DNA of 22,888 nucleotides from a virus. Where the stretch lies: IMG/VR virus record IMGVR_UViG_3300032083_003129, positions 1 to 22,888 of that record; one strand, given 5' to 3'. The notes under the pieces are model-generated. The model had not been told where the DNA came from, made no database searches, and saw nothing but the letters and a program-made list of their open reading frames with translations. Positions within the stretch are counted from its first letter, which is position 1; every line of letters starts with the position of its first letter. Below, one piece after another: positions 1 to 22,888 of the stretch. The position numbers and the translations under genes were made by a program.

Positions 1-60
1 CACTGCTCCGACTGTGAGGCCGAAGTAACCTATGTTCAAATCCACGAGGAAGAAGAATGA
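1..60 (+). CDS. C-terminal end of a zinc-ribbon-like protein (5' partial)
   Basis: The first 19 codons before the TGA at 58-60 read as an open frame that enters from outside the window. The visible tail has a Cys-x2-Cys pair (residues 2 and 5 of the fragment) and ends in four glutamates. The pair suggests the second half of a small zinc-binding module. The stop overlaps the polymerase start as ATGA (57-60), the coupling used throughout this operon, which supports the frame being real. Function cannot be assigned from this fragment. Confidence 0.6.
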   Translation, partial: HCSDCEAEVTYVQIHEEEE

Positions 61-2447
61 TTGTTGACAACTACTTGCCGGACTATGATGGGAGAGATGT
101 CCTCTACTGTCGCTGGCGAGGAGAAGACGGCTCGCTGATTGAGCAGAATGTCACGGACTTTGAACCCTACTTTTGGGTGAAGGGCGATACCGACCCCCGT
201 CTCATCAAGCACTTGGTGGACCGATACCCCGGCTCGCGAGTGGACCGGGAGGCAAAGGCGGTCGGCATAGGTGGTGAGAACCTTATCAAAATCATACCGT
301 ATCGCCAAGGCGATGTGTACTCCATGCGGAAGGAAATGATTTCGTGGGAAGGTGACTTAACTCTTCCCGACCGATTCCTCATGGACCGCTACGCTACGAT
401 GCCCGAATGGAAACCAAGAGTATGGCACCTTGACCTTGAGTGGGACCCAACAGAAGACTTCACGACGGTAATAGGCATTGCTGACAATTATACCAATGAA
501 CGGGTGGCTTTCTGTTGGTCGGAAGAATCAGCCGAATCACTCAGCGCCGACGAAGTGATTGAGGAAACACGCTCCATGTCATGGGAGAACAGCAAAGGCG
601 TGGAGAGCAGCGTGACCTATCGCCGAGTTCTATGCAATTCCGAAGCGGCCATGTACACGAAGTTCCTTGAGTACCTTGAAGTCTGTGACCCCGATGTGTT
701 TGTAGCACATGCACTCATGTGGGCCGACCTCCCTCACATCATCCGTCGCCTTGACAACAAGGATGTCCTCGGCAAAGGTTTGTTTCGCAAACTCAGCCCG
801 CTCAATCGGGTGCGCAAGCCCGACAAAGAGAAGGGCTATGACTACACTGACCAGCCTGTCCGTGGGCGACTGTGCTTTGATACGGCTGCCCCACTTAGCA
901 GCGGCACTGGCTTTGAGCGGGTGTGGAAGGACAGCGGTAAGCCTCAGTTGGCCAGCCGAAAGTTGGACCATATCACAGGGGAGGATGTGCTGGACTACGG
1001 TGGCAAATTGGAGATGGATGTTTTCACGGGATGGTACGAACGCTTTGACGAGTTCGTGGACTACTGTATGCGAGATGTAGAACTGCTCAAAATGGTGGAT
1101 GAGCGGAACCACATTCTTGAGTTTTACATGTCACTTCAACAAGTCTGTGGCGTCAGTTTCCCCTCCTGTCACAATGTCACTCGTTTTGCACGGGGCCTCA
1201 TCAGTCGTCGTACTGACTGGAAGCCCCCGACACTCAGTCCTCATTCCAAGGCCGAATACGAGGGTGCTTACATCCCGCCCCCTACTCCGGGTCGCTACGA
1301 AGGTGTCGCCTGTGTGGACTACAAAGGCCTGTACCCTTCACTTATCCTCAGCCACAACCTTTCGTGGGAGTCACAGGTTGACCGAGAGTATCGCTTTGAT
1401 GATGATGTAAGAGAACTGCCGGACGGCACCTGTTGGCGACAGGGCGAGCCGGCTCTATTACCACGCATCGTCACTGAGATGTTTGAACTGAGAGACGAAT
1501 ACAAACGCCGCATGCGTGAATCCAAGACCGACACTGAACGCTCCGGCTGGAACACCATGCAGTTGGCGGTCAAGCGAGTCATGGCGTCGCTGTACGGCAT
1601 GTGCGCCAGCACCCACTGGGGCTGGTCAGCACCCGCCATCGCCAGCGCCATCACGGCCTGTGGTCGTGAGGCTATCCGATTCCTTATGGAAGAGTCCGAG
1701 AAGCAGGGCTACAATGCGCTGTACGGTCACACCGACTCGGCCTTTGTCCAAATCCCCTTTGAAGAAGCCCCTGCTCTTGCTCGCCATTTGACAGAGACGG
1801 TTCAGCGAGAACACCAAGCCGACGCTCTCATTGTAGAGTTTGAGGCATACATGGATTACTGGATTGTGGGTGGAAAGAACCTCTACTATGGCGTATGCTC
1901 ATGGCCGCCCGAGGACAAGGGTAAAGCCAAGTCAGCACGCTGGGGCAAAATCAGCACGCTTGCCCCTGTCTCTCGCACCCTTGAAAGAGATGTGCTCACC
2001 AAGGTATGCAGTGGAGCCAATGAGAATGAAGTCGTGGACCATGTGCGAGGCATCAGCCTCGGCATCATGCAAGGTGACTACCCTGTGGCTGATGTAGCAG
2101 GTGTCACCCGCATCCAAAAATCGCTGGACAAATACGCAGAAAGCGTGGGTGTGCCCGGTGTTAAGGGTGCTCGCTACTACAACCTCCATCTCGTGGAGAA
2201 GAGTATTCATCCCAAGTTCAAGAACGGGGACAGCGTCAAGTGGGTCTATGTGAGTGAGCCGCCTCAAGGAATGCCACCCACTGACATTGTCGCTTACCAT
2301 GAAGAAGAGGAGTTGAAAGACTTCACTCTTGACTATGACAAAATGGTAGACAAATTGGTGTCCCAAAAAATCAAGCCTATTTTCAATGCACTTGGCTGGT
2401 CGTTGGACTACGCCACAGGTAAGCCGAAACCAAAGAAATACTGGTAG
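57..2447 (+). CDS. polB: Family B DNA polymerase with 3'-5' exonuclease domain
   Basis: Replicative DNA polymerase of 796 aa, a usual length for archaeal and viral PolB. The exonuclease domain comes first: Exo I is DLE at residues 126-128, Exo II keeps its Asp (D224) but reads HALMWADLP, lacking the usual Asn, and Exo III is Y336-x3-D340. The polymerase motifs follow: motif A DYKGLYPSLI from D421, motif B K506RVMASLYG, motif C YGHTDS at 556-561. The catalytic aspartates of motifs A (D421) and C (D560) are present, but the first Asp of the usual YxDTDS is His558. It presumably copies the viral genome together with the primase and helicase downstream. The ATG start overlaps the upstream stop as ATGA. 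A 33-bp gap separates it from the next gene. Confidence 0.96.
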   Translation: MIVDNYLPDYDGRDVLYCRWRGEDGSLIEQNVTDFEPYFWVKGDTDPRLIKHLVDRYPGSRVDREAKAVGIGGENLIKIIPYRQGDVYSMRKEMISWEGDLTLPDRFLMDRYATMPEWKPRVWHLDLEWDPTEDFTTVIGIADNYTNERVAFCWSEESAESLSADEVIEETRSMSWENSKGVESSVTYRRVLCNSEAAMYTKFLEYLEVCDPDVFVAHALMWADLPHIIRRLDNKDVLGKGLFRKLSPLNRVRKPDKEKGYDYTDQPVRGRLCFDTAAPLSSGTGFERVWKDSGKPQLASRKLDHITGEDVLDYGGKLEMDVFTGWYERFDEFVDYCMRDVELLKMVDERNHILEFYMSLQQVCGVSFPSCHNVTRFARGLISRRTDWKPPTLSPHSKAEYEGAYIPPPTPGRYEGVACVDYKGLYPSLILSHNLSWESQVDREYRFDDDVRELPDGTCWRQGEPALLPRIVTEMFELRDEYKRRMRESKTDTERSGWNTMQLAVKRVMASLYGMCASTHWGWSAPAIASAITACGREAIRFLMEESEKQGYNALYGHTDSAFVQIPFEEAPALARHLTETVQREHQADALIVEFEAYMDYWIVGGKNLYYGVCSWPPEDKGKAKSARWGKISTLAPVSRTLERDVLTKVCSGANENEVVDHVRGISLGIMQGDYPVADVAGVTRIQKSLDKYAESVGVPGVKGARYYNLHLVEKSIHPKFKNGDSVKWVYVSEPPQGMPPTDIVAYHEEEELKDFTLDYDKMVDKLVSQKIKPIFNALGWSLDYATGKPKPKKYW

Positions 2448-2480: not shown

Positions 2481-3050
2481 ATGCGAAACATTGACGAAGA
2501 ATTGAAGCGAACAATTAGCGAGAACCCGGGACTGGGTAGAAGTGAGTTGGTGGCCAAATCACCAACACTACAGGCGAACAGCAAACAGTACATCGGGCTA
2601 CGCCTACGGGAACTGGTCAAGCAAGGTATCATCCGTAAGGAGGGTGAAAAGAAAGGAACGAAATACTTCCCCCACTCGCCAAATGAGCCAGCCGACTCAA
2701 ACAAACTGGTGTCCTCTACTCGTATTATCCAAGTCTTTGACGAAGTGAAGCGGATGGTCGTGGCTAAGAATCAAGCCTACGGCGACAGTGTCTTTGAGCC
2801 TATGCGGGTGTTCTACAAGGGTGGCGCTCAACCAGCCGACCTCATCCGTATTCGGATGGACGACAAAATCAGCCGCCTCATTCAAGGCAGTGAAGGCATT
2901 GAGAACGACGAGGATGTCATCAAGGACTTGATGGGCTACTGTGCTATTCTACTGGTCGCCATGCGACAAGGTCAAACGCGGTTGGACGACTTTACGAAGA
3001 GCGAGCCCTCTTATTTCAAGTACAATCCAAAGTACAATCCCAAGAAGTGA
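2481..3050 (+). CDS. Winged-helix protein fused to a nucleotide-modification-associated domain (Nmad1/DUF1599-like)
   Basis: 189 aa in two parts. Residues 1-66 look like a winged helix: a helical stretch, then RLRELVKQGIIRK and a basic wing ending KYFPHSP. Residues 80-165 match the Nmad1/DUF1599 pattern, a MazG-like all-alpha fold: KNQAYGDSV at 96-104, R125-x-DDK-x2-R132, and acidic residues around 144-149 followed by MGYC. The family is common in phages, often near nucleotide or DNA modification genes, and may bind or hydrolyse nucleotides; that role is an inference. A GGTGA ribosome binding site (2470-2474) precedes the ATG. The C-terminus has a 12-bp tandem duplication coding YNPKYNPKK. 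Its stop overlaps the next small gene as GTGA. Confidence 0.72.
   Translation: MRNIDEELKRTISENPGLGRSELVAKSPTLQANSKQYIGLRLRELVKQGIIRKEGEKKGTKYFPHSPNEPADSNKLVSSTRIIQVFDEVKRMVVAKNQAYGDSVFEPMRVFYKGGAQPADLIRIRMDDKISRLIQGSEGIENDEDVIKDLMGYCAILLVAMRQGQTRLDDFTKSEPSYFKYNPKYNPKK
3021..3044 (+). repeat. 12-bp tandem duplication, two imperfect copies
   Basis: Two adjacent copies (TACAATCCAAAG and TACAATCCCAAG, one mismatch) encode YNPK twice at the C-terminus of the Nmad1-like protein. They look like a replication-slippage product in an unstructured tail. Confidence 0.8.
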
Positions 3051-3172
3051 GGCGGTCAAGGGTGGGATTTTGGGACCGCATATTCAGCCGACTGAGGACG
3101 CAAGAGGAAGAACGAATCATTGAAGGTTATTACGACAGAGCCAAGAAATTGTACGGGGTTGAAGAAGAATGA
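3047..3172 (+). CDS. 41-aa hypothetical microprotein
   Basis: A GTG start at 3047 overlaps the preceding TGA (GTGA, 3047-3050), and its own TGA (3170-3172) overlaps the next gene's ATG (ATGA, 3169-3172). This fills a 118-bp gap that would otherwise be empty. The product begins (M)RRSRVGFWDRIF and continues with a charged, probably helical segment (EEERIIEGYYDRAKKLYG) and an acidic end. It has no cysteines or membrane span. A second in-frame GTG at 3062 would give a 36-aa form. I do not recognise the family. The evidence for it being real is the double stop/start overlap and the amphipathic composition, not homology. Confidence 0.55.
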   Translation: MRRSRVGFWDRIFSRLRTQEEERIIEGYYDRAKKLYGVEEE

Positions 3173-3915
3173 AGAGAGTCACAAAGGTTATCAAAAAGGC
3201 AAACGAATTGACCCCGGCAGAAAAACGGCCCGGCTCTCTATTATCGGGAAACAAAGTTACGGGCTATTCTGTCAATTTCCCTATCGCCAACACATGTCAA
3301 CCTTCCAAGGTTTGCATTGAAACATGCTACTACGCTGCGGGGGCGACCACATGGAACGCCAGTCTCCGCAAACAACTTTGGTTGATGCAGCACTGTATCA
3401 ATGACCCTGCCCAGTTTGCGGAAGAAATCGTCAAGGAATACCGTAAGAAGAAGTTGGATTACCTCCGGTGGAACGGAGGTGGCGACTTGTTCCCCGCTTC
3501 TGTTGAGGCATTGAACCACATCGGGGAACATCATCCCGATGTTGTCATTTGGATTGTCACCCGGATACCTCACATGGCTGCAATAGTCGGTGACTATGAA
3601 TCGCTTCATTTGCATTTCAGCCTTGACAGGCATTCGTTAGAGCGCCGTGAAGCGGCTATCAAATTGGTTGAGCGGCCAATTTTCTTTTCATACCAGTGCG
3701 AGAAGGGTGAAAAGCCCGATGTAAAACACTTGACCCAAAACCACGGGGTTTCATTGTTTTTCTTTGACAATTATTACCTCACCGACCCGATTTACGAAGA
3801 GCAGTTTAAGCAATTTTTGTGCCCCTTGAACCTAAACCGCACGAATACGGGAGACATAACTGGTTCATGTGGTGAATGTCGTCGGTGTTTTAACGGTCAT
3901 TGGTTAGGTGATTGA
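3169..3915 (+). CDS. Gp88-like protein with radical-SAM-like cysteine motif
   Basis: 248 aa resembling the phage 'gene product 88' family. The N-terminus has SGNKVTGYSVNFPIANTC, then Cys43-x5-Cys49-x3-Cys53 followed by YY, matching the family's TC...C...CY signature. RWNGGGDLF at about 100-108 corresponds to the family's R-[IV]-x-x-x-GDF segment, and WIVTRIP at 128-134 to its strand with YTK. This suggests a radical-SAM-like TIM-barrel fragment binding an iron-sulphur cluster; no member's reaction is known to me. A second cluster, C218 and C234-x2-C237-x2-C240 at the C-terminus, could hold a further Fe-S cluster or zinc. The start overlaps the 41-aa gene (ATGA), and the next gene begins at the base after its stop. 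Position beside Nmad1 hints at nucleotide chemistry, which is inference. Confidence 0.62.
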   Translation: MKRVTKVIKKANELTPAEKRPGSLLSGNKVTGYSVNFPIANTCQPSKVCIETCYYAAGATTWNASLRKQLWLMQHCINDPAQFAEEIVKEYRKKKLDYLRWNGGGDLFPASVEALNHIGEHHPDVVIWIVTRIPHMAAIVGDYESLHLHFSLDRHSLERREAAIKLVERPIFFSYQCEKGEKPDVKHLTQNHGVSLFFFDNYYLTDPIYEEQFKQFLCPLNLNRTNTGDITGSCGECRRCFNGHWLGD

Positions 3916-4905
3916 ATGAGTGACAGAGATTGGGAAGCATACGCCAAGTCCACTTACCAGTGGGAGCAAGGGCACGACAAATACCTACGCATGACCAAGA
4001 CCAGCCTCACCAGCGACTTTGGGTACTGTCGTTTCCAGTACAAGAAGAAGCGCATTGAGGGTCGTAAGTCCCCTACCACAGACGCCATGACCCGTGGGAC
4101 AAATGTCCACGACGCCATGGAAGAGTTCTACATCAATGTCCGCCCAGTCTATAGGAAAGCATACGATTTGCTCAAAAAGCACGATAGGGAAGGGGCCAAG
4201 GCTCTCCTCATGGATTGTCTACCTACTCCGGAAGAGCCCTATTCGCTCGGTGAAGAACCCATAATTGACCAGCGTATTGAGTGGGAACTCGTTCGTCTTG
4301 AGGCCGACCCCGACCGATTCCTCCCCATCATCAATGAGTTGGAGGTCCACGCTTTCGTGGATGTCCCGTTCAATTTCAACGGCGAAGAGTTGACGATTCC
4401 TGTTCACTTTGCAGGTAGCATTGACCGGGCCTACCACACCGAAGAAGACAAGGTTGCCCTCATGGAATTGAAAACCGGCAAGTGGGTCGGGACCAACTTC
4501 AAGGTCCGAAGCATGCGAACTGAGATGGCTTTCTATTGGGACTTGCTCCGCAAGGCTGACCACCCATTGCAGGATGTCACGCATTGGGGCTGGTTTTACC
4601 CCGCTGGTCAACGGGATGATGTCCCCGGTTCCGAGAACCATGTGGCCTATGAGAAGGTAAGTAAGCGATACCTCACAACAATTAACAAGGCTGTCAACGA
4701 ACTGATTGAGGCATACCTCACTGACAATTTCCCTCCTCAGCCGTCCACCGGCAAGTGCGCTCATTGTGACTTTGTAGATGAATGTCCGGCTTGGGCCGAC
4801 GGAGGCGAAGTATACTGGAAAGGTGGGTGGGGCAACACACTCACGCCGAAGAGTGCCGCAGAAAGACTACGGGAACTTGAAGAAAAGAAGGGGGCAAAGA
4901 AATGA
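3916..4905 (+). CDS. PD-(D/E)XK nuclease, Cas4/RecB-like with Fe-S cysteines
   Basis: 329 aa. Nuclease residues appear in family order: RGTNVHDAME with H65, GSID with D170, MELKTGK with E184-x-K186, then RTEMAFYWDLL at about 201-211 in place of the usual Q-x3-Y motif. One N-terminal cysteine (C38) and three C-terminal ones (C281, C284, C290) match the four-cysteine iron-sulphur arrangement of Cas4 and AddB-type nucleases. Such enzymes resect or trim DNA ends, so a role in recombination-linked replication or DNA processing is likely. There is no helicase domain and no Cas gene nearby, so a CRISPR role is not supported. The ATG follows the preceding stop directly, and its own stop overlaps the next start (ATGA, 4902-4905). 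Confidence 0.88.
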   Translation: MSDRDWEAYAKSTYQWEQGHDKYLRMTKTSLTSDFGYCRFQYKKKRIEGRKSPTTDAMTRGTNVHDAMEEFYINVRPVYRKAYDLLKKHDREGAKALLMDCLPTPEEPYSLGEEPIIDQRIEWELVRLEADPDRFLPIINELEVHAFVDVPFNFNGEELTIPVHFAGSIDRAYHTEEDKVALMELKTGKWVGTNFKVRSMRTEMAFYWDLLRKADHPLQDVTHWGWFYPAGQRDDVPGSENHVAYEKVSKRYLTTINKAVNELIEAYLTDNFPPQPSTGKCAHCDFVDECPAWADGGEVYWKGGWGNTLTPKSAAERLRELEEKKGAKK

Positions 4906-8771: not shown

Positions 8772-9379
8772 GCGATGTGATGGCGATTGACATTGAAACC
8801 GAGAACTTTTCTCATGAAATCGGTGGGTGGGGTAACACCCACATGTTCTTACCGACCGTCGTTGCTACATGGACCGGTGATGGTGGGACAGTTTACTGCA
8901 ACAAATCGCAGGCAGGCGAGTTCTTGCCCGAAGGAGTCAAACTCAAGTCGCTATCTCCGGAAGTGCTGGGCCGGGACATTGAGGAACACATCGCAAAAGG
9001 CGGTAGACTCGTGGGGCATAATATCGTCGGCTTTGACCTCCCTGTGCTACGAGACAGTCTTGATTGTTGGGCGGCCGGTGACCTTCTCGGCAAAGCATCT
9101 CAAACCATCATTGACACTTCTGCTAAGTTGCGGTCTATTGCTAAATCAACTATTCCGCTGTCCGACGCTTGTGTCCACACTCTCGGTATGGACAAGACCA
9201 TGAAGAGTCATGATGCTCCGCTTGAATGGCGGAAAGGCAACTACGGCAAAGTGGCCGAGTATTGCCTCAAAGACGCTCAACTTTCGTACGACCTTTGGAA
9301 GTTCGGTAACACAGAAGGCTTCGTTAAAGCACGGTGCCGGGAAACTGGAGAAATAAAGGAATACGAAGTTGAATGGTAG
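8768..9379 (+). CDS. Stand-alone DEDD 3'-5' exonuclease
   Basis: 203-aa RNase H-fold exonuclease of the DnaQ/PolB-proofreading type. Exo I is AIDIETEN with D8 and E10, Exo II is GHNIVGFDLPVL with N85 and D90, and Exo III is Y165-x3-D169, giving all four DEDD residues. Exo II is closer to the consensus than the one in the viral polymerase upstream, suggesting this protein could supply or supplement proofreading. There is no polymerase domain. It is coupled to the 49-aa zinc protein by ATGA, and its stop lies just before the chaperonin ribosome binding site. Confidence 0.88.
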   Translation: MSDVMAIDIETENFSHEIGGWGNTHMFLPTVVATWTGDGGTVYCNKSQAGEFLPEGVKLKSLSPEVLGRDIEEHIAKGGRLVGHNIVGFDLPVLRDSLDCWAAGDLLGKASQTIIDTSAKLRSIAKSTIPLSDACVHTLGMDKTMKSHDAPLEWRKGNYGKVAEYCLKDAQLSYDLWKFGNTEGFVKARCRETGEIKEYEVEW

Positions 9380-9385
9380 GAGAGG
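9379..9385 (+). promoter_or_regulatory. Strong ribosome binding site of the chaperonin gene
   Basis: GGAGAGG sits 5 bases before the ATG at 9391. It rules out the in-frame ATG at 9373 as the likely start and is one of the strongest sites on this strand, in keeping with abundant chaperonin expression. Confidence 0.75.
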
Positions 9386-9390
9386 AACCT

Positions 9391-10887
9391 ATGACAAACG
9401 AAAAGAAACAAACAGCACAGAGCATGAACATCCGAGCAGCAAAGGCCATTGCCGATACGGTACGGTCTACTTTGGGCCCAGCGGGTATGGACAAAATGAT
9501 GGTTGATGGTGGCGGCAATGTCATTGTTACCAACGACGGGGCTACCATCCTACAACAACTTGACATCAGTCACCCCGGTGCAAAAATGATTGTTGAAGCG
9601 GCCAACACCCAAGAAAGTATGTGCTACGACGGCACGACGACGACCACAATTTTGGCTGGCTCTCTGCTTGCTAACACAGAGGGCTTGTTCAATAAGGGAC
9701 TGCACCCGAATGTGGTGTGTCGTGGCTACAGGCAGGCTGCCCAGTGGGCGGTAGAAGCCATCACTGAGACGGCTCAAAGCAGCAGCAAGGACCTGCTCAA
9801 TGTGGCTAAGACGGCCATCACAGGCAAGTCACTGGAGAGCAGCATGAGTCATGTGTCCGGTCTATGCGTGGAAGCAGTGGAGCAAGCCAATGGAGATATT
9901 AAGCGCATCAATGTGGTGTGTCAGCCCGGTGCCTCGCTGGAAGACTCCTACTGCTTTAACGGAGTCGTGCTCAACACGACCTTTATGATGCCAAGCATGA
10001 GTAAAACGCCTGCGAAGAACATCATTCTTCTCAACACTGGGCTGTCGTCAAAGAAGGACGACAATGTCCAAGTCAATGTGCAAAATGTTGGCGACTTCAA
10101 GAATTATCAGCAGTACACCACCAAGGATGTGTGGGAAGCAAAGGTAGACACTTTGACTGAACTGCTCCCCGAAGGCGGGGCGGTGTTCTGCCGGGACAGC
10201 GTGAACGAACTTGTGGCTGCTCTTCTGTCCAAGAAGGGTATCAGCGTGGCCCATCGTGTGCCTCCCAGCACACTTGACGCCATGTCGGCACTACTGGACA
10301 CGCCCATTGCTCACACCGTGGAGGACATTAACGGAGTGGTTCAGCCAACTGAGTTGGAACAACGCACGATTGGTGACATGGACTACATCGTCGTAGCCGG
10401 CGAAGGCAATGTCACGACCCTCGTTCTGCGAGGAGCCACCCGGCAGACCCTTGACGAAACCGAGCGTGGGTTTGACGACGCTATCGGCGTGGTCTGCTTG
10501 GCTTACAACAGCGACCAAATCGTAACTGGTGGTGGCTCATCCTACATTCACGCCGCACTTTCTCTACGCAATCGCGCAGCCGAGATTGGTGGTCGGGCAC
10601 AAATGGCCATTGAAGCCTTTGCAGACGCCTTGGAGGCGATTCCTGCGACCATCGCCGAGAATGCTGGCTTTGACCCGCTGGACACGGTGCTGGCTCTACG
10701 CAGCGCCCATCTGCTTGGAAAGACCGACTTTGGTCCGAACATTGAGGAAGGTGGCGTCTGCTCTATGATTGGGCTGAATGTGTACGAACCATTGGCCTTG
10801 GTGAAGCAGGCGATTCAGTCAGCAAGCGAAGTCAGCATAAGCATCCTGCGCATTGACGACATCATCGGGAAGCGTTCCGAAGAGTGA
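9391..10887 (+). CDS. thsA: Group II chaperonin (thermosome subunit)
   Basis: 498-aa ATP-driven protein-folding subunit, shorter than the roughly 540-550 aa of cellular thermosomes. Conserved parts are in order: LGPAGMDKMMVD at 28-39, TNDGATIL at 47-54, YDGTTTTT at 79-86 (GDGTT with the first Gly replaced by Tyr), the apical domain around 195-310, ERGFDDAIGVV at 358-368 with the catalytic-type D363, GGG at 380-382, and a C-terminal ISILRIDDIIG. The shortening is spread through apical and intermediate regions; no domain is missing. Group II chaperonins have been reported in magrovirus genomes. It probably folds virion proteins, perhaps including the giant protein on the other strand. It is the last gene of the + operon. 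Confidence 0.95.
   Translation: MTNEKKQTAQSMNIRAAKAIADTVRSTLGPAGMDKMMVDGGGNVIVTNDGATILQQLDISHPGAKMIVEAANTQESMCYDGTTTTTILAGSLLANTEGLFNKGLHPNVVCRGYRQAAQWAVEAITETAQSSSKDLLNVAKTAITGKSLESSMSHVSGLCVEAVEQANGDIKRINVVCQPGASLEDSYCFNGVVLNTTFMMPSMSKTPAKNIILLNTGLSSKKDDNVQVNVQNVGDFKNYQQYTTKDVWEAKVDTLTELLPEGGAVFCRDSVNELVAALLSKKGISVAHRVPPSTLDAMSALLDTPIAHTVEDINGVVQPTELEQRTIGDMDYIVVAGEGNVTTLVLRGATRQTLDETERGFDDAIGVVCLAYNSDQIVTGGGSSYIHAALSLRNRAAEIGGRAQMAIEAFADALEAIPATIAENAGFDPLDTVLALRSAHLLGKTDFGPNIEEGGVCSMIGLNVYEPLALVKQAIQSASEVSISILRIDDIIGKRSEE
10862..10887. other. Convergent overlap between the early and late operons
   Basis: The chaperonin stop (10885-10887) on the + strand lies beyond the lyase stop on the - strand (10862-10864), so 26 bp code on both strands. 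No hairpin-plus-T-run terminator is visible there. Antisense read-through from either side is likely unless transcription ends within the coding sequences. Confidence 0.85.
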
Positions 10888-11689
10888 TTTGCTCAGCGAT
10901 GCGAGAGGCAGCCTTGAGGGCTTCTTCATCTACACCCGTGGTAAAGCCCCAAGCGTGCAGGTGAGTCACCAGCGTTTCAGTTGACAGATTCGCCCCGCTG
11001 TTTTCAGCAAACGGGCAACCGCCAAGCCCGCCAACGCTTGAGTCAATTTCATGAATACCGTTGAGCAGTGCGGCACGCACTAATTCAAGGGCACGCTCTT
11101 CGTTACCGTTATGGTGAAGGTGCAAGGCGGCTCGCATACCTTCGTTTTTGGCCAGTTCAGCCAGTTCAATAACCTCCTTACGAGTCCCCGCCCCGACTGT
11201 GTCAGCAAAGACGATAGTGCTTCCAAACATTTTGGCGTCACGGATGCATGAAATGAGCGTCCCTACACTGGGCTGACCGCTGGCTGGAGAGCCGAAGGCC
11301 ATGCTGATGTACACCCGGACATTCTCCTTGGGCACTTTATCCATGAAAGTCTTGTACATCAGCACAATTTCACTGCGGGTCTTGCCCATGTTGTTCAAGT
11401 TGAAAGTCTCGCATGGGCTGAACACGATGTTGAACTTTTTCACACCAGCCGATACAGCCCGGTCAAAACCACGCTTGTTCATCACCAACGCACTACCTTT
11501 GTCAAACACCTCTTCGGCGTCGGCCATTTGAGGCACAAGGCGGGGGTGAGCAAAACTCACTTCTTCTATAGAACGCAAGCCTGCGGCGTACAGACTGGCG
11601 ATGAGTTCTTTTTTCGTGGCTGTGGGTACGATTTTCTTAAGGGCTTGAAGTCCATCACGAGGGCCAACCTCGTAAATGGAAATGTTCAC
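10862..11689 (-). CDS. HMG-CoA lyase-like DRE-TIM metallolyase
   Basis: 275 aa, a near-complete HMG-CoA lyase-type TIM barrel. Family signatures: EVGPRDGLQ (R11, D12), EEVSFAHPRLVPQMADA (E42/E43), FADTVGAG (D163), LHLHHNGN (metal ligands H190 and H192), and GGLGGCPFAENSGANLSTE with the catalytic-type C225 and metal-ligand-type N234. The usual HxHDT is HxHHN, the main deviation. The family cleaves (S)-HMG-CoA to acetyl-CoA and acetoacetate using a divalent cation; related DRE-TIM enzymes condense or cleave other acyl substrates. The GTG start at 11689 is chosen because GGAGGGG lies 6 bases upstream and it overlaps the preceding stop as GTGA; a GTG at 11719 would overlap the membrane-protein gene. 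It is last in the late operon, overlapping the chaperonin 3' end. Confidence 0.85.
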   Translation of the reverse strand: MNISIYEVGPRDGLQALKKIVPTATKKELIASLYAAGLRSIEEVSFAHPRLVPQMADAEEVFDKGSALVMNKRGFDRAVSAGVKKFNIVFSPCETFNLNNMGKTRSEIVLMYKTFMDKVPKENVRVYISMAFGSPASGQPSVGTLISCIRDAKMFGSTIVFADTVGAGTRKEVIELAELAKNEGMRAALHLHHNGNEERALELVRAALLNGIHEIDSSVGGLGGCPFAENSGANLSTETLVTHLHAWGFTTGVDEEALKAASRIAEQITLRNASR

Positions 11690-11841
11690 TGAATGCCCCT
11701 CCGCATCCCGTTGTAACACGCTCGGTGAAAAGCCTCTTCGTCTTCAATGAAAACCACAGTGTCGTTGGGGTCGGGCGTAGCCAGCCACACTGCTACAAAC
11801 CCCACTATGAAAGAGAGGATGAAGAGGGTGGGCAACAGCAT
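11686..11841 (-). CDS. 51-aa single-span membrane microprotein
   Basis: This fills the gap between the lyase and the zinc-finger gene. The ATG at 11841 is followed almost at once by about 20 hydrophobic residues (LLPTLFILSFIVGFVAVWLA), then an acidic segment (PDPNDTVVFIEDEEAF) and a short basic tail. The most likely picture is a small bitopic membrane protein. The stop overlaps the lyase start as GTGA (11686-11689), so the two are probably translated together. No strong ribosome binding site is seen at the ATG; the frame stays open upstream to about 11934 but without another standard start. Function unknown: host membrane targeting, holin-like action or anchoring of a partner are possibilities. 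Confidence 0.6.
   Translation of the reverse strand: MLLPTLFILSFIVGFVAVWLATPDPNDTVVFIEDEEAFHRACYNGMRRGIQ
11696..11702 (-). promoter_or_regulatory. Ribosome binding site deciding the lyase start
   Basis: On the minus strand this reads GGAGGGG, 6 bases before the GTG at 11689. It is the strongest such site in this part of the operon and lies inside the 3' end of the membrane-protein gene. Confidence 0.7.
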
Positions 11842-15583: not shown

Positions 15584-18500
15584 TCACTCCGTGCTGTGGT
15601 CACCCGTGTTGAAGTTCGTATCGCCGCCTGCACCCTTGGGGTGCAACGATTGGCTGTAGCGAGGCTCTACCGAAAAGTCTTCCTTTCGTGCAGCGTCGCT
15701 ACGGAAATGCTCCAAAGTATTCTCACTCATGACAAGGCGACCTACTGGATTGGTGATGTCGGTCTTGTCATAGCCTGTCACATCCACACCCAAAATCTTG
15801 GGTCCGTTGCTGTCCGAAGCAGTGACGCTCGTGTTGGGAGCGATGCTGTAGACAGGTGAATACGGCGGGCTGCTTGGCGTACCCGTGCGTGCAGACGGAG
15901 CATCGCTGGTGTAAATACCGTACTTGCCGCCACCTGTAGCAAGGTAGAAGTTGCTGCCGTCTTGAGGGCTACCCGTCTTGAGCATGCGCTTACCACGGAA
16001 CAATTGGACATGGTGCTTATCCAGCGTGCGAACAGGGCGAACAAGGAACTCAATGCTCTTGTCTAAGACATTTGTCTTACCCTCGGTAGGGTCATGGTTG
16101 GCGTCTTGATATGGGTTGGACGACGAAGACGCACCAGCCTTGCCCCAGCCCTCGTCGGAAAGTGCACCTTGTCGCACTGACCAATCCATAATGTAAGTGC
16201 CGCCAAGACTCCACATACTGTGGGCATCCGAGATTTTCAAAATGCCCTTCACAGGTTGACCCGACCAATCAAGGCTCGTCATGTCCAAGTGACCGAGGGT
16301 TTGTGAACCAACATCCTTCGCACCACGCAATGTGGTTCGCTGCCCTACACCTCGGTTGCTGTGCAAACTGTGCGCCTCAGTTGACATGATGATGTACTCT
16401 TGACTTTCCCCGTCGTTCAGTTCACTCATCGTGTCAACATCAAGACCAATGCGAACACCGTCTGCGCCAACAGGGTCAGCCAACTCTGCATCCGCTGTAA
16501 CGGTTTCAATGCCTTCACTGACCATAGCCTCGGGCTTGAGTAGTCCTTCTTCACTGTCCAGCCCCAGCCGTGCGCTGATACCTCGGTCAATTTCTTCGGG
16601 TTGAAGCACATCGTTGCGCGGGCGGTTCAACCCTTTACCGATGGTCGGCTCACTTGTTGGCTGTGAAAGGACAAGTCCAGTAGGCTCAATTGATTCGGAC
16701 ACATCCATTAGCAGGCTTTCGTTGAAATGCGTAGGCCAGCGAACACCACGACCGTCTCCACGGTCACCTACACGCAGGGATTCGGCAGGATTGAACCAGT
16801 CCACAATGTCCATACCCGTAGCGTCATTGTTGACCGTGTTGTCGTTTCCGCTTTGTCGGTCATCGCTACCTGCGAAAAGACCGACCGTATCGGGACGAAT
16901 AGTGCGCCCACCATCAGTGTAAGCGTTTTCCGGGTCCCAAGCCGGGCTGATGCCGAAGCCACGGACAGGGAATCGTCGCACATCCTCGCCACGGGTGTTA
17001 CCCCACCAGTCAACGAGGTAGTAACGGTGAGCGTTGGCCAACTCGTAAATCTCTTTACCGGCAGCGTCACCGGCGTACAGTTTGCGAACCGTGGATGGAT
17101 TGCGTAGCACACGGACAGGGCAACCAAATGGCTTTGTCACCCGTCGCCCATCGCTATAGCGAACCTGCCGCCCAAGTTGGTCTTCGTTGAATAGAGCACT
17201 GATTTGCGTCAAGCGTTCAAGAATACCGGTGTAAGAAGCAGGGTAGTCTACGCCACTTTCCCAGCCGTCAGTCTTGCTGTCTTGCTGAATAAATGGCCCG
17301 TGATAATAGCCGAGCAAAGCGTTGCTATCTGCTACTTCCAAGTAACCACGCACATACGGGGACCAACGAGGGCGATTCATGGGCTGGCGTACAGCCATAC
17401 GATAGCCGAAGCAATAGTTGCGGGCATCGTCGGAATCACTGGTCATCTGTGCATAGGTGCGTTCTTCCACACCACTGTTGTCGCGGAAGCCCACACAGTC
17501 AACCCCGTACAATTTCCCGCCCCAGCCAATCAACGCTTCAAGGAACCCGTCAAGGCGGCTGGAACCAGCGCCACCACGCGAGCCACCGGGCCAATAGCCA
17601 GCAAAATTGAACTTGTCCGAACCAATGGTTCCGCCTTGGTGACTCAGCATAGTGTCAGCGTCAATGTTGCTGGCGGTGAACAAAGCACCTGTGCCGTCAC
17701 GGTCCGTACAGGTAGAAATCGTGAACTCAATAACAGGGAAAGTGTTGACTGTGCTTGGCCCGTCCACACCATCCACAGTTGCCGGAGTGAGTGGGCTGTC
17801 TGTGATTGTGTTCGCAACCTCGCTGGTCTTTGTCACACCCCACAGGGTAATTGCGTACAATTTTGTCCCATCATCATTCCACGAAATCCCACTCAGCCAA
17901 GGGGTAGTATCGCTTGCAGTTTGAGACGGAGAAGTGTTACGATTACCAAAGTAACTGCGCAGGTCCAAAGTATAATCTAACGATTGGCTGGTTGGGTCAA
18001 AGGGTGTGGAAAGTGTGTATTCTCTTACATAGCCTGTTGCGCCACTGAGCCACATTTTTGTACCATCGTCATTGAACAAAATGTCGCTGAGTGTGCCCAC
18101 ACTGATACTAAGGCTGGACCCTTCTGTGTCGCTCGCGGAAGTTTGCCATGGTGTAACCGTCGTGAACTGGCGCAAAGTGCTTGCATACCCAAGGAAATAT
18201 TTGGTGCCGTCGTTGTTCCATGAAACAGCACGAATACCAGTGGTTCCCGAAATGTTCTTTGCACCGGTCAAGGTTAGAGTGCTCAAATCAAATGCCGTTG
18301 AAAGAGTAGCACTTTGCACACCTCCTCCGTGGAAGTCAGTGATTATCATGTAAGTCCCAGTAGGGTCAAGGTCAAAGCCGTCACAACTGTTGAGTGTAGC
18401 ATCACCGATACCAGCACTGCGTTGGTCATAAACCCCGTCAGTATTGTCAACGGCGATTTTCGCAAAGTAGATGTTGTCAGTATCATAATCGTTGTTGTTA

Positions 18501-21500
18501 CCACGATTGGAGATGAACATGTTGTTCCCAATGACACGGAGCCCGGTCAGCCATGTCATGTCCGATGCAAGCATGTTGAAGTTCCGCCCATAGGGAATGG
18601 TGCCGGCCGTGAGAGAATCGTCCACACTTTCCAAACTAAACGAGTCGGGTTCGCACACCTGTGGCTTCATCCACTTCATCCCAAGTGCGAACGGCCCCTT
18701 GGAAGCGGCGTAAAAGAAGTCGTTGTAGTGCAATGTCTCATAATGCTCGGGGATGTTGTTGAGTCCTTTCTTGAAGACAGGACTGTCCACATCACCTGCC
18801 TTCGTGTAGAATGAGCGAGACGAATCATCGGAGTAGTAGGTGAACGGTCGCCCAAGGTTGGGGTGCCACATGCACAAGAAAGCGTCGGGAAGGTGTAGGC
18901 TATTGGTGTCACGACTACCGCTGTAGGTTTGCAGCAGATTACGAGTAGCGATGCTCTTGGTAGAATCAGTGTAGATTTCATCAGCGAATCGGTTAGCGTA
19001 AGGTCCTGTCAATTTGACGATAGTGCCCGTACCGCTTACATCCAAGTTTGTCCAAAAGTTGGGCGTGACGGCAGTAACGCCCGCAAATTGCACAGGTGAA
19101 CCAAGTGTAGCGTGAGCCAATGTCCCTACGCGGTAGGTATAGGTCGCCAATTGTCGCTGACCATTGGAGTCGGTGTACTCCAGTTGCTCACCATAGTAAG
19201 GGTCCACAGGGAACAATTCAGCGTTGTCCACAGTGATAGTCTGTCCGGACTGGTCTTTTGCCGTAGCCCGAGTGTTTGGGTTGAGAGAACGGATACGGAA
19301 ATGTTCCGCATAAATGTCGGGATAACATGTCGGATAACCGGCGAGCGTCATTTGTGCGCCCACCGCCCCGTAAGTGGCTCGGTTAAACTGATAATAATGG
19401 TCGGGAGTATGCCATTCCAAGTGACGGAAGTAAACGGCTGCCGAAGAGCGGGCTCCGTCTTTGTGCAATTGTGCCCACCACGGAACAGTGATGGTGAAAC
19501 CGGGCGTCGTTTCAATGAACATGTTGGGGTGATACGGTAGAGAGCGGCGGCTAAATGCAGGTGAAGCAGACTCTTCTACGCCCAAGGGGTTGTAGAGAGC
19601 GAGCGGTGGGAGATTGGTGAACTGGCTACCAGCATCGGGCTCAATGTCAAGAATCATTTCGTTGAGAAGGATTTCACAACCCCGTACATCAGCCATGGTG
19701 GCCTCGGCGAGAACCAGTGTGTAGCCACCATCTCCACTGGTAGAGTGCTCAATAGCGATAACCGTGTTGACCTGTTGACCAGTGAGTTCAATCACAGAAC
19801 CATCGGGCACATCGTTAGCAGGACCGTTGCGGTGATAACCAGTAAACTGCTGCTTGAACAGATTCGGCTGAATCACAATTTGGTAAGCACCTACTTCCAT
19901 AGGGTCGGGGAAGTGATTGTTCTGCGTATATGACCCAGCCGCCTCCAACACGATACTGTGGCCCCCGGTTTTGTTAGCGTCTATAGAAGCAGCGATACCG
20001 TAGCCTTCAAACTTGACCTTTGTTTCAGTGAGAAGGGTAAACGCTCCGCCGTGGATGTCACTGGGGGGCACCGACGCACTGGGTCCGGAGAACCAAATGA
20101 GCGGGTCACGGGACGGCCACCTAAGTGCATCGGACTGTTCTTCTTCAACCGAAGTAACAGACGATGCGGAGACTGCCCGGTTCAAATCGTACAGCCGCTG
20201 GTAGGCCGGGTGGGCATAATGGCCCGGCATCATCGCCATGGTGGCGTTGACATAATGGTGCCCCATCCGAGGAATCGGCATAGGTGTCAATTTAGGTGCA
20301 ACCAGTTGTGTCGCTGGTGTAGAACCAACATTCGCCCAATCAATTGTAGGCATGTCCGGACTGGCTCCGCTGTACTCCGCATGGTCACGCAGACGACGAG
20401 CAGCAAAGAAGCGAGTGCTGCCGGCCGGAAGGTAATATGACGGTACGACTTTGAGGCCACTCTTTCCTGTCACAAATGACACAAAGTCGGGAGAAACAAC
20501 CACACCTGTGAACTTGTTTGTACCTTTTCCGGTGTAAGAAGCCAACACCCCTTCGTTGGTCACAGGGTCATAAACTCGCAAGAACCAGCGACCGCTTGAT
20601 TTCTCGCTGGCGTCAGTCCATGTAGCGGCTTCGGGTGTAGAGGTCACATCAATTTCATCATTTGCCTCATCATACGCACTGAAAGTCAATTCGTCAACAT
20701 CGTATCGGTGCGTCATTGTTGCACCCATTTTTGTCACATGGAAGTGCAGAGCACGGTCGTGTGGCTCATATGCCGTCTTGAGAGGAGCATTATCAGTATG
20801 CTGTCGCCAGCCATGGGTTGAACTGTTCGGGAATGAGAGTCGGTTATCACTTACATCAGTGCCGTCTTGTGAAAGGTGTTCCCACCCGTTGTTCTCCCAA
20901 GTCGGCCAAAGTCGGGGGCTGTCATAGGTGTTAGAGAAAGTGTCTTTGACAGCACCTTCTCCTTGACTTGGGTGCATAATGCCGCCTGCCCCCATCGTTT
21001 CAGTTTGATAGCCTTGGATACGGTCAAAGCCCGGTCGCACAATGATATTCCCGGGAATCTCATTAGCAAGGGGCAAGCGAATGCGCATGTTTGGTGAAAC
21101 ACCGCTTCCGGCCAATGCAGGTGCGAGCCCTTCTATGTCCCGGTCACTTACATGGCGGAAGTCGTAAATGATGGTGCCCAGTGGGCTCCCTCCTTCTAAT
21201 CGGTGCTCTTGACCTGTGTCGTCAATAACCTGCATGCTTTGGAATTGCAGTTCTTCATTGGGTATACTGAGTGCACTTTCAACCAGTGGGTAATTTCCTT
21301 CAAGTTGAGGATGGGACAACTCTTGTGCTTGAATCAGTGGGAACATGGCGCTGTTGGTGGTTTCAAACGAGAACCGATTGTTGCCGAGGATTTTCTCACC
21401 TACCGTTTTGTAAGTTGACCCGTCTTTTCGCACCACCCAAGGGGTCATACCCAAACCACGAGCGTTGCTGGCTGGGAGAGTAAGGTTGCCTCCGTCCATT

Positions 21501-22888
21501 CGTTTCCAAATGACATGCTCTTCAAGGAAGTTTCGGGCAGCATGTCGGTCGCCGTAATACTTGTACAGGCCTTCGGATATACCGTAATATTGAGTTTTGG
21601 TTGAAACACCTTGGCACTCAACCCCGTAAGTTTCGTTGTCTTCATGAGACGCAGAAGCAGGGACAACTGACTCATCCCAAAACAAATCGCCCGTGGGGCT
21701 GTGACAAGTGTCTCCCCGGTCAACCGCAGAGGCAGCAGTGACTTGACTATGCCAATACGACTCGGTCCCAACAGCAGGGTAAGAAGCGGCCTTTTGTGGG
21801 AACGCTTTCGTATCATTCACCATGACAGCCTCTACATGAGGTCCAGCGGTAGCGTGAGAAACATAACGGTCTTTGTTGTGCACTTTGCCGGTATCCCACG
21901 CCACGGTACCGGCATTGTCCAACTTAGAAGTGCGACTCACATCCAGCCAATCACCCATAGCGATGATGCCGTCACGGTCAGCCTTTGCGATAAGAGGAAG
22001 TTCACTCTCATGTGTCACTGCAATCAAGTGCCGAGCAGCAAGTCCGTGAACACAACTGTCTTCGTACAAAGACTGGATTGTATCAATGGAGCCGTGCGGA
22101 GAAACACTGCCCAAGCACGACTCGGCGCTGCCGTAGGGTGAAAATCCTAAGAACGGGTGCCATGCGCCCAGCCCGGCCCCAAAGTTTCCGGATGTCCCAA
22201 TCTCCAACGAATTAAGGTAAGAATATCGCTCACCGGCCCAGCCTACAGCACCCACGGGTTTTGTTCGGTCCACTGCATCTACAAGTCCATTAAAGTGAAC
22301 TTGCGTACGCTCGTCAATTGATTCGTTTGAGTTGTTATAGCGATGGGTACCTGCTTTGGTCCACACATAGAGTTTGACATTCGGACCGTTGACAACCGGG
22401 GCAGGAATGGCTAATTTCGTCGTCGGGCTAACCATGTTGCTATTCGTCGTATAAGAATTGACGCCTAAAGTGAAGGTGCTGCCTGTGTAACTGACATACG
22501 GTGCAAAGGCCGACTGTGCCCCGTCACTGATTCGCAGCCAGCCATATTGAGGAAGTGTGGTTGGAATAGGAGAAGAAGTGGTGATGGTGGCGGCAGTAGG
22601 TCCAGCCGTTTCTTCGGTGTAAGTATCAACATCCAGTGTAACCCACCCATACCGGTCCTGTTTTGCAGCGTGCTGCATAGAAGGTAAGAATGTCCCACCA
22701 ATGGCTTTCAGTGGCTCTTTTCCGGGGAAGGTGTTGATAGCAGTAGCGAGAAGGGCGGCTAACTCTTCCGCATTTTGACAGCGGGTAGCGTCAACAACGA
22801 ATATGTTGTCGTGGTGAGTCATGTCATTTTCAGTTGCGAAAGTCCCAAGGTACGCTGTACCCAACGCTGAGGCCACACGGAACACCGA
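15584..22888 (-). CDS. Giant virion protein with beta-propeller-like block (5' partial)
   Basis: The open frame runs off the window edge, so at least 2,434 codons are visible and the true start lies outside; the GTG at 22885 need not be the start. The protein is rich in Gly, Ser, Thr, Asn and aromatic residues, with no obvious signal peptide or membrane span. At about residues 1430-1700 there is a series of repeats with W/F-N-x-DGTK, read as a beta-propeller (separate entry). The first ~150 residues contain FPGKEPLKAIGGTFLP, shared with the 179-aa protein next door. Its size, composition and position before hub- and fibre-like genes suggest a tail, fibre or surface protein, but no catalytic motif is recognised. 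It would take nearly a third of this window and is likely a late, abundant product. Confidence 0.85.
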   Translation of the reverse strand, partial: SVFRVASALGTAYLGTFATENDMTHHDNIFVVDATRCQNAEELAALLATAINTFPGKEPLKAIGGTFLPSMQHAAKQDRYGWVTLDVDTYTEETAGPTAATITTSSPIPTTLPQYGWLRISDGAQSAFAPYVSYTGSTFTLGVNSYTTNSNMVSPTTKLAIPAPVVNGPNVKLYVWTKAGTHRYNNSNESIDERTQVHFNGLVDAVDRTKPVGAVGWAGERYSYLNSLEIGTSGNFGAGLGAWHPFLGFSPYGSAESCLGSVSPHGSIDTIQSLYEDSCVHGLAARHLIAVTHESELPLIAKADRDGIIAMGDWLDVSRTSKLDNAGTVAWDTGKVHNKDRYVSHATAGPHVEAVMVNDTKAFPQKAASYPAVGTESYWHSQVTAASAVDRGDTCHSPTGDLFWDESVVPASASHEDNETYGVECQGVSTKTQYYGISEGLYKYYGDRHAARNFLEEHVIWKRMDGGNLTLPASNARGLGMTPWVVRKDGSTYKTVGEKILGNNRFSFETTNSAMFPLIQAQELSHPQLEGNYPLVESALSIPNEELQFQSMQVIDDTGQEHRLEGGSPLGTIIYDFRHVSDRDIEGLAPALAGSGVSPNMRIRLPLANEIPGNIIVRPGFDRIQGYQTETMGAGGIMHPSQGEGAVKDTFSNTYDSPRLWPTWENNGWEHLSQDGTDVSDNRLSFPNSSTHGWRQHTDNAPLKTAYEPHDRALHFHVTKMGATMTHRYDVDELTFSAYDEANDEIDVTSTPEAATWTDASEKSSGRWFLRVYDPVTNEGVLASYTGKGTNKFTGVVVSPDFVSFVTGKSGLKVVPSYYLPAGSTRFFAARRLRDHAEYSGASPDMPTIDWANVGSTPATQLVAPKLTPMPIPRMGHHYVNATMAMMPGHYAHPAYQRLYDLNRAVSASSVTSVEEEQSDALRWPSRDPLIWFSGPSASVPPSDIHGGAFTLLTETKVKFEGYGIAASIDANKTGGHSIVLEAAGSYTQNNHFPDPMEVGAYQIVIQPNLFKQQFTGYHRNGPANDVPDGSVIELTGQQVNTVIAIEHSTSGDGGYTLVLAEATMADVRGCEILLNEMILDIEPDAGSQFTNLPPLALYNPLGVEESASPAFSRRSLPYHPNMFIETTPGFTITVPWWAQLHKDGARSSAAVYFRHLEWHTPDHYYQFNRATYGAVGAQMTLAGYPTCYPDIYAEHFRIRSLNPNTRATAKDQSGQTITVDNAELFPVDPYYGEQLEYTDSNGQRQLATYTYRVGTLAHATLGSPVQFAGVTAVTPNFWTNLDVSGTGTIVKLTGPYANRFADEIYTDSTKSIATRNLLQTYSGSRDTNSLHLPDAFLCMWHPNLGRPFTYYSDDSSRSFYTKAGDVDSPVFKKGLNNIPEHYETLHYNDFFYAASKGPFALGMKWMKPQVCEPDSFSLESVDDSLTAGTIPYGRNFNMLASDMTWLTGLRVIGNNMFISNRGNNNDYDTDNIYFAKIAVDNTDGVYDQRSAGIGDATLNSCDGFDLDPTGTYMIITDFHGGGVQSATLSTAFDLSTLTLTGAKNISGTTGIRAVSWNNDGTKYFLGYASTLRQFTTVTPWQTSASDTEGSSLSISVGTLSDILFNDDGTKMWLSGATGYVREYTLSTPFDPTSQSLDYTLDLRSYFGNRNTSPSQTASDTTPWLSGISWNDDGTKLYAITLWGVTKTSEVANTITDSPLTPATVDGVDGPSTVNTFPVIEFTISTCTDRDGTGALFTASNIDADTMLSHQGGTIGSDKFNFAGYWPGGSRGGAGSSRLDGFLEALIGWGGKLYGVDCVGFRDNSGVEERTYAQMTSDSDDARNYCFGYRMAVRQPMNRPRWSPYVRGYLEVADSNALLGYYHGPFIQQDSKTDGWESGVDYPASYTGILERLTQISALFNEDQLGRQVRYSDGRRVTKPFGCPVRVLRNPSTVRKLYAGDAAGKEIYELANAHRYYLVDWWGNTRGEDVRRFPVRGFGISPAWDPENAYTDGGRTIRPDTVGLFAGSDDRQSGNDNTVNNDATGMDIVDWFNPAESLRVGDRGDGRGVRWPTHFNESLLMDVSESIEPTGLVLSQPTSEPTIGKGLNRPRNDVLQPEEIDRGISARLGLDSEEGLLKPEAMVSEGIETVTADAELADPVGADGVRIGLDVDTMSELNDGESQEYIIMSTEAHSLHSNRGVGQRTTLRGAKDVGSQTLGHLDMTSLDWSGQPVKGILKISDAHSMWSLGGTYIMDWSVRQGALSDEGWGKAGASSSSNPYQDANHDPTEGKTNVLDKSIEFLVRPVRTLDKHHVQLFRGKRMLKTGSPQDGSNFYLATGGGKYGIYTSDAPSARTGTPSSPPYSPVYSIAPNTSVTASDSNGPKILGVDVTGYDKTDITNPVGRLVMSENTLEHFRSDAARKEDFSVEPRYSQSLHPKGAGGDTNFNTGDHSTE
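17790..18590 (-). other. Beta-propeller-like repeat block in the giant protein
   Basis: Four spaced repeats are visible with the core DGTK or DPTG followed by a hydrophobic strand: SWNDDGTKLYAI, LFNDDGTKMWLS, SWNNDGTKYFLG and DLDPTGTYMII, centred near 17870, 18062, 18208 and 18362, about 145-190 bp apart. Two of them lead into LSTPFD or LSTAFD, the usual connection in bacterial and phage 'DGTK' propeller repeats. A partial fifth blade (TGLRVIGNNMFISN) lies near 18530. A sugar- or protein-binding propeller on the virion surface is the likeliest reading. Confidence 0.7.

Follow-up and report, generated by a model that had tools for sequence, protein, structure and literature searches.

A variable slot beside the polymerase gene of a magrovirus-like record holds three overlapping genes that are probably independent passengers

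The window analysed here is the whole of an IMG/VR-type virus record with a length of 22,888 bases. A slot between its polymerase and nuclease genes contains three genes, and this part of the window is arranged as follows:

57..2447, + strand: family B DNA polymerase (PolB), conserved backbone and left border of the slot (PF00136, 7.7e-29; phrog_262, 4.3e-81)
2481..3050, + strand: first slot gene, Nmad-like protein of 189 aa (phrog_1485, 3.8e-13)
3047..3172, + strand: second slot gene, microprotein of 41 aa with a GTG start (supported by dN/dS and by distant relatives)
3169..3915, + strand: third slot gene, Gp88 of the GP88 family, 248 aa (PF17338, 1.2e-16)
3916..4905, + strand: PD-(D/E)XK nuclease of the Cas4/exonuclease type, conserved backbone and right border of the slot (PF12705, 6e-19)

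The Nmad/microprotein and microprotein/Gp88 junctions overlap by exactly 4 bp each (GTGA and ATGA, respectively), and the Gp88 gene abuts the nuclease gene at 3916 with zero gap. The Cas4 matches of the nuclease were weak. The trio of overlapping ORFs described in the initial annotation was borne out, and all three can be regarded as real genes, since Gp88 matches PF17338, the first product matches phrog_1485 and has a winged helix in its AF2 model, and the first gene and the microprotein gene show dN/dS values of ~0.1-0.17 against close relatives (0.11-0.17 for the microprotein). Exact 4-bp overlaps were observed in 5 of the 17 adjacent same-strand gene pairs of the window, so such overlaps are weak evidence for functional linkage.

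Judging by its gene content, the window is a magrovirus-like record, i.e., it belongs to a marine archaeal virus. PolB, an archaeal-type primase, and a chaperonin are located within one module, a combination that characterises magroviruses (order Magrovirales). The gene set includes PolB, a primase-like protein, an ERCC4-type nuclease, a thermosome-type chaperonin, and an HMG-CoA-lyase-like gene. It agrees with the set of Aoguangviridae magroviruses in PolB, the archaeo-eukaryotic primase, nucleases, and the HMG-CoA-lyase-like gene (PMC10768690), whereas the ICTV profile of this family names GroEL/GroES instead of a thermosome-type chaperonin, and the G+C content of the window is 51.8% versus 31.5% in Aobingvirus (PMC10768690). 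No capsid or terminase genes were identified in the 22.9-kb record, and no RNA families or tRNAs were found in the window. The thermosome-type (group II) chaperonin gene occupies positions 9373-10887 and the HMG-CoA-lyase-like gene positions 10862-11719; genes of the latter kind were also found near Gp88 in two other loci (L016, 5599-6486; L162, 1397-2251). A 2433-aa ORF on the minus strand (15584-22885) reaches almost to the window end and probably encodes a large virion protein. The polymerase had been described as unusual; its class is not exotic, because the PolBs of magroviruses fall into a viral group close to B5 that is already known (PMC7544198). Motif C, read in the window PolB (57-2447) and in 49 related loci, is YGHTDS in all 50 PolBs where it was found, so that His stands where the usual YxDTDS has its first Asp.

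The PolB search yielded 53 related loci. All of them have the PD-(D/E)XK nuclease gene downstream of PolB, with variable content in between: Nmad (10 loci), a 62-aa helical protein (28 loci, namely L112, 7176-7364, and 27 others), other small genes (4 loci), or an empty slot (11 loci). The borders of the slot are conserved, and its content differs from virus to virus. Gp88 was present in the slot of none of the 53 loci, and the microprotein lay beside Nmad in two of the ten Nmad loci (L004 and L104). The PolBs of the three closest viruses (L004, L104, and L105) are 94-96% identical to that of the window, with which they form a clade with 100/100 support in the maximum-likelihood PolB tree. Their slots contain Nmad and the microprotein (L004 and L104) or Nmad alone (L105), and within this clade Gp88 occurs only in the window. 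In the junction DNA of L004 and L104, the microprotein ATGA leads directly into the nuclease gene, with no Gp88 there. As the clade is fully supported and Gp88 is restricted to the window, gain of this gene in the window lineage is the simplest history, by parsimony rather than by proof. Gp88 would have been added exactly at the microprotein stop with the ATGA overlap kept, an event read from one site, its direction being set by parsimony. These comparisons mark a site beside the polymerase of the magrovirus genome where accessory genes get exchanged.

The initial annotation had suggested that the three genes constitute one nucleotide- or DNA-modifying system, in which the 41-aa protein is a bridging subunit and the modified nucleotide is one that the polymerase tolerates. 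This operon reading is tempting, as the overlapping genes adjoin the polymerase, the predicted fold of Gp88 resembles nucleotide-acting enzymes such as viperin and QueE, and the first protein has an Nmad1-like domain. Co-occurrence of the trio in other viruses, set in advance as the check that could refute it, was negative. The PF17338 search detected Gp88 in none of the 51 PolB records that were searched whole (two PolB records were not) and gave two matches in the control, G001. The Nmad profile, which matched five of eight check records, detected no Nmad in the 36 Gp88-carrying records, and neither gene was detected in six distant records carrying the microprotein. No second virus with all three genes was found among the 53 PolB loci and the 51 whole PolB, 36 Gp88, and 6 microprotein records; as most of the records are fragmentary, the counts are lower bounds on presence, and absence falls short of proof. 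In addition, the microprotein gene keeps its 3' overlap of 4 bp irrespective of which gene comes next, and no further base-modification gene was recognised among the proteins scanned. A single system was rejected on co-occurrence and is considered very improbable, which corrects the operon reading. The three genes are probably independent passengers in a variable slot of the magrovirus replication module and not parts of one pathway. Against independence, they lie in one probable transcript here, and joint action in the window virus is possible.

The dN/dS values of the microprotein (consensus GFWDRxFxRLRTQEEERxIEGYYxxAKRxYGVEEE) indicate purifying selection between close relatives. The microprotein was also found in six distant magrovirus records (L216-L221, around positions 2501-2611), where it is 78-81% identical to the window copy, while PolB is about 35-41% identical. 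The third-position identity of the distant microprotein genes is about 51-57% and their dS is ~1 to 2 or saturated; these values are more readily explained by strong constraint than by a transfer in the very recent past. An older transfer is possible, since the gene is missing from most PolB relatives. In every case, the microprotein gene and its downstream neighbour share 4 bases at the microprotein stop, and five different, unrelated genes were observed in the downstream position. Together with the absence of Nmad and Gp88 from the distant records, this argues that the microprotein is not a dedicated bridge between these two proteins, as had been proposed for it. A functional pair of Nmad and the microprotein, with Gp88 alone as cargo, was also considered. 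The GTGA-overlapped pair is kept in the window, L004, and L104; however, Nmad occurs without the microprotein in L105 of the same clade and in seven L106-type loci, and the microprotein occurs without Nmad in the six distant records, which makes such a pairing improbable. As an independent passenger, the microprotein would be a strongly constrained helical factor acting on its own.

The first slot protein is predicted to consist of a winged helix (residues 1-66) and a three-helix Nmad1-like domain (residues 73-162). The winged helix had been suggested from the sequence and was recovered in the AF2 model (pLDDT 81), with structure matches at Z 9.6. It filled the match list of a PDB structure search, and four family members gave weak matches to a winged-helix family of haloarchaea. 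The three-helix domain represents a widespread viral family (600 pattern matches, 523 of them confirmed), and K96, N97, Y100, G101, S103, P107, F111, R125, D128, K129, R132, D149, G152, and Y153 are invariant in an alignment of 61 sequences. The assignment to Nmad1 held weakly: the predicted helical domain may be similar to viral UniProt entries of that name, to which the model gave distant structural matches in BFVD (E 0.02-0.12, 17-25% identity), whereas the PF07659 (DUF1599) profile found nothing in the window at E values up to 10 and was absent from the top families of the 61 relatives. PF07659 was thus dropped as the origin of the name Nmad1. No members for a PF07659 profile comparison were found in 299 genomes of one bacterial phylum, and an approximate DUF1599 query, which gave three weak phage matches only, was not used. 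DUF6378 was rejected as a relative, being weak in two members with loci that were not useful. Among the phage relatives of the window protein, the winged helix is mostly missing, and a few carry an N-terminus of another type that is predicted to bind DNA. The genome of cyanophage S-CRM01 has a relative immediately upstream of its sliding-clamp gene. The domain composition and the context of the relatives favour, with low confidence, a DNA-linked replication or pool-control factor; the protein would bind DNA via its winged helix, our guess being a replication factor that acts as a regulator or in pool control.

The role of the first protein could alternatively be that of the 62-aa helical slot protein, which it would replace, e.g., as a small nucleotide pyrophosphatase (MazG-like). 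Both proteins use the same slot, being mutually exclusive in the 53 loci, and both carry a K..YG motif. The 62-aa protein matches PHROG families of unknown function, and in unrelated phages its relatives adjoin genes for helicases, clamps, and polymerases. However, no homology between the two proteins was detected by profile comparison, and neither matches the Pfam MazG model; the 62-aa protein had no Pfam match at all. PDB sequence searches with both proteins returned nothing meaningful. Such a replacement is considered unlikely.

Gp88 is a clear member of the GP88 family (PF17338), with a score of 61.7 bits against a curated cut-off of 24.4, and all 32 aligned members match this profile. No established function for PF17338 was found in the literature, and a literature match linking Gp88 with radical SAM was discarded, since it concerned a differently numbered protein. 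The window copy differs from the family at large in its placement in an archaeal-virus replication module. Seven cysteines (Cys43, Cys49, Cys53, Cys218, Cys234, Cys237, and Cys240) are invariant or nearly so in the 32-sequence alignment, as are Tyr54, Arg100, Trp101, Gly105, Asp106, Trp128, Arg132, Ser151, and Asp153. The window protein has the seven cysteines together with R100, W101, G105, and D106, and the conserved RW..GD and W..TR motifs are present; Cys43, Cys49, and Cys53 form the N-terminal motif C-x5-C-x3-C-Y, and the GGGD motif occupies residues 103-106.

The AF2 model of Gp88 (pLDDT 91, pTM 0.89) was compared with known structures. Ordinary TIM barrels came first in Foldseek, weakly and with no match below E 0.001. 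When the top 1000 Foldseek chains were re-aligned with VIA-align, ranks 1-33 were all radical-SAM enzymes, headed by viperin (Z 9.3, rmsd 3.2, 177 aligned) and including QueE (Z 9.0) and spore photoproduct lyase (Z 8.6); the first non-member TIM barrels had Z 6.8. Radical-SAM enzymes carry the cluster loop after strand 1 and the GGE motif after strand 2. Like these enzymes, Gp88 is predicted to be a partial alpha/beta barrel with a three-Cys loop after strand 1, a GG-acidic motif (NGGGDLF) after strand 2, and a C-terminal Cys set resembling that of an auxiliary cluster. A radical-SAM-type fold is therefore predicted with confidence. The Cys-rich, radical-SAM-like character noted earlier stands for the predicted fold and the conserved cysteines, and does not extend to the canonical CX3CX2C, in place of which Gp88 has C-x5-C-x3-C, or to the sequence level, where no match to radical-SAM families or PDB chains was obtained. 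A PDB sequence search with Gp88 gave nothing meaningful, and defence-system models matched neither Gp88 nor Nmad. Because of the non-canonical spacing and the lack of a sequence match, Gp88 is called radical-SAM-like and is not filed as a member.

The same spacing and lack of sequence match, together with the first place of other TIM barrels in Foldseek, would suit a TIM-barrel-like protein that is not a catalytic radical-SAM enzyme and that uses its cysteines to hold zinc or a structural cluster. This alternative appears rather unlikely, as radical-SAM enzymes take VIA-align ranks 1-33 well above the next TIM barrels, GGGD follows strand 2 at the place of the GGE motif, and the seven cysteines are kept in nearly all 32 members. 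On the strength of the model, Gp88 is probably an iron-sulphur, SAM-binding radical enzyme, in which the three N-terminal cysteines would hold the SAM cluster and the four C-terminal ones an auxiliary cluster. PF17338, a family without an assigned function, thereby gains a testable one. The near-ties among viperin, QueE, and spore photoproduct lyase carry no information on the substrate; a nucleotide or nucleic acid is possible as a first guess. More speculatively, and with a rather low probability, PF17338 might represent an unrecognised radical-SAM subfamily with C-x5-C-x3-C and a four-Cys auxiliary site, serving as a mobile accessory gene of archaeal and bacterial tailed viruses, and would chemically modify a nucleotide or nucleic acid in the course of infection. 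What remains of interest in the trio is that Gp88 may represent a viral enzyme family of the radical-SAM-like kind and that the microprotein is very conserved.

Elsewhere, the only recurrent neighbours of Gp88 were a DNA-methyltransferase-like gene and, near Gp88 in four marine contigs, an unnamed protein of 134-209 aa. The DNA-methyltransferase-like gene is directly upstream of Gp88 in L161 (1611-2987) and L183 (2246-2977), which may leave a link to DNA possible, and similar genes were located within 3 kb of Gp88 in L172, L175, L177, and L181. Many consecutive proteins near Gp88 have an N-terminal signature close to MTAFDxAWxLxK (L016, 2653-5537; L163, 20-2948; L165, 3823-6601; and L166, 980-2948), which might serve as a tag for targeting or packaging.
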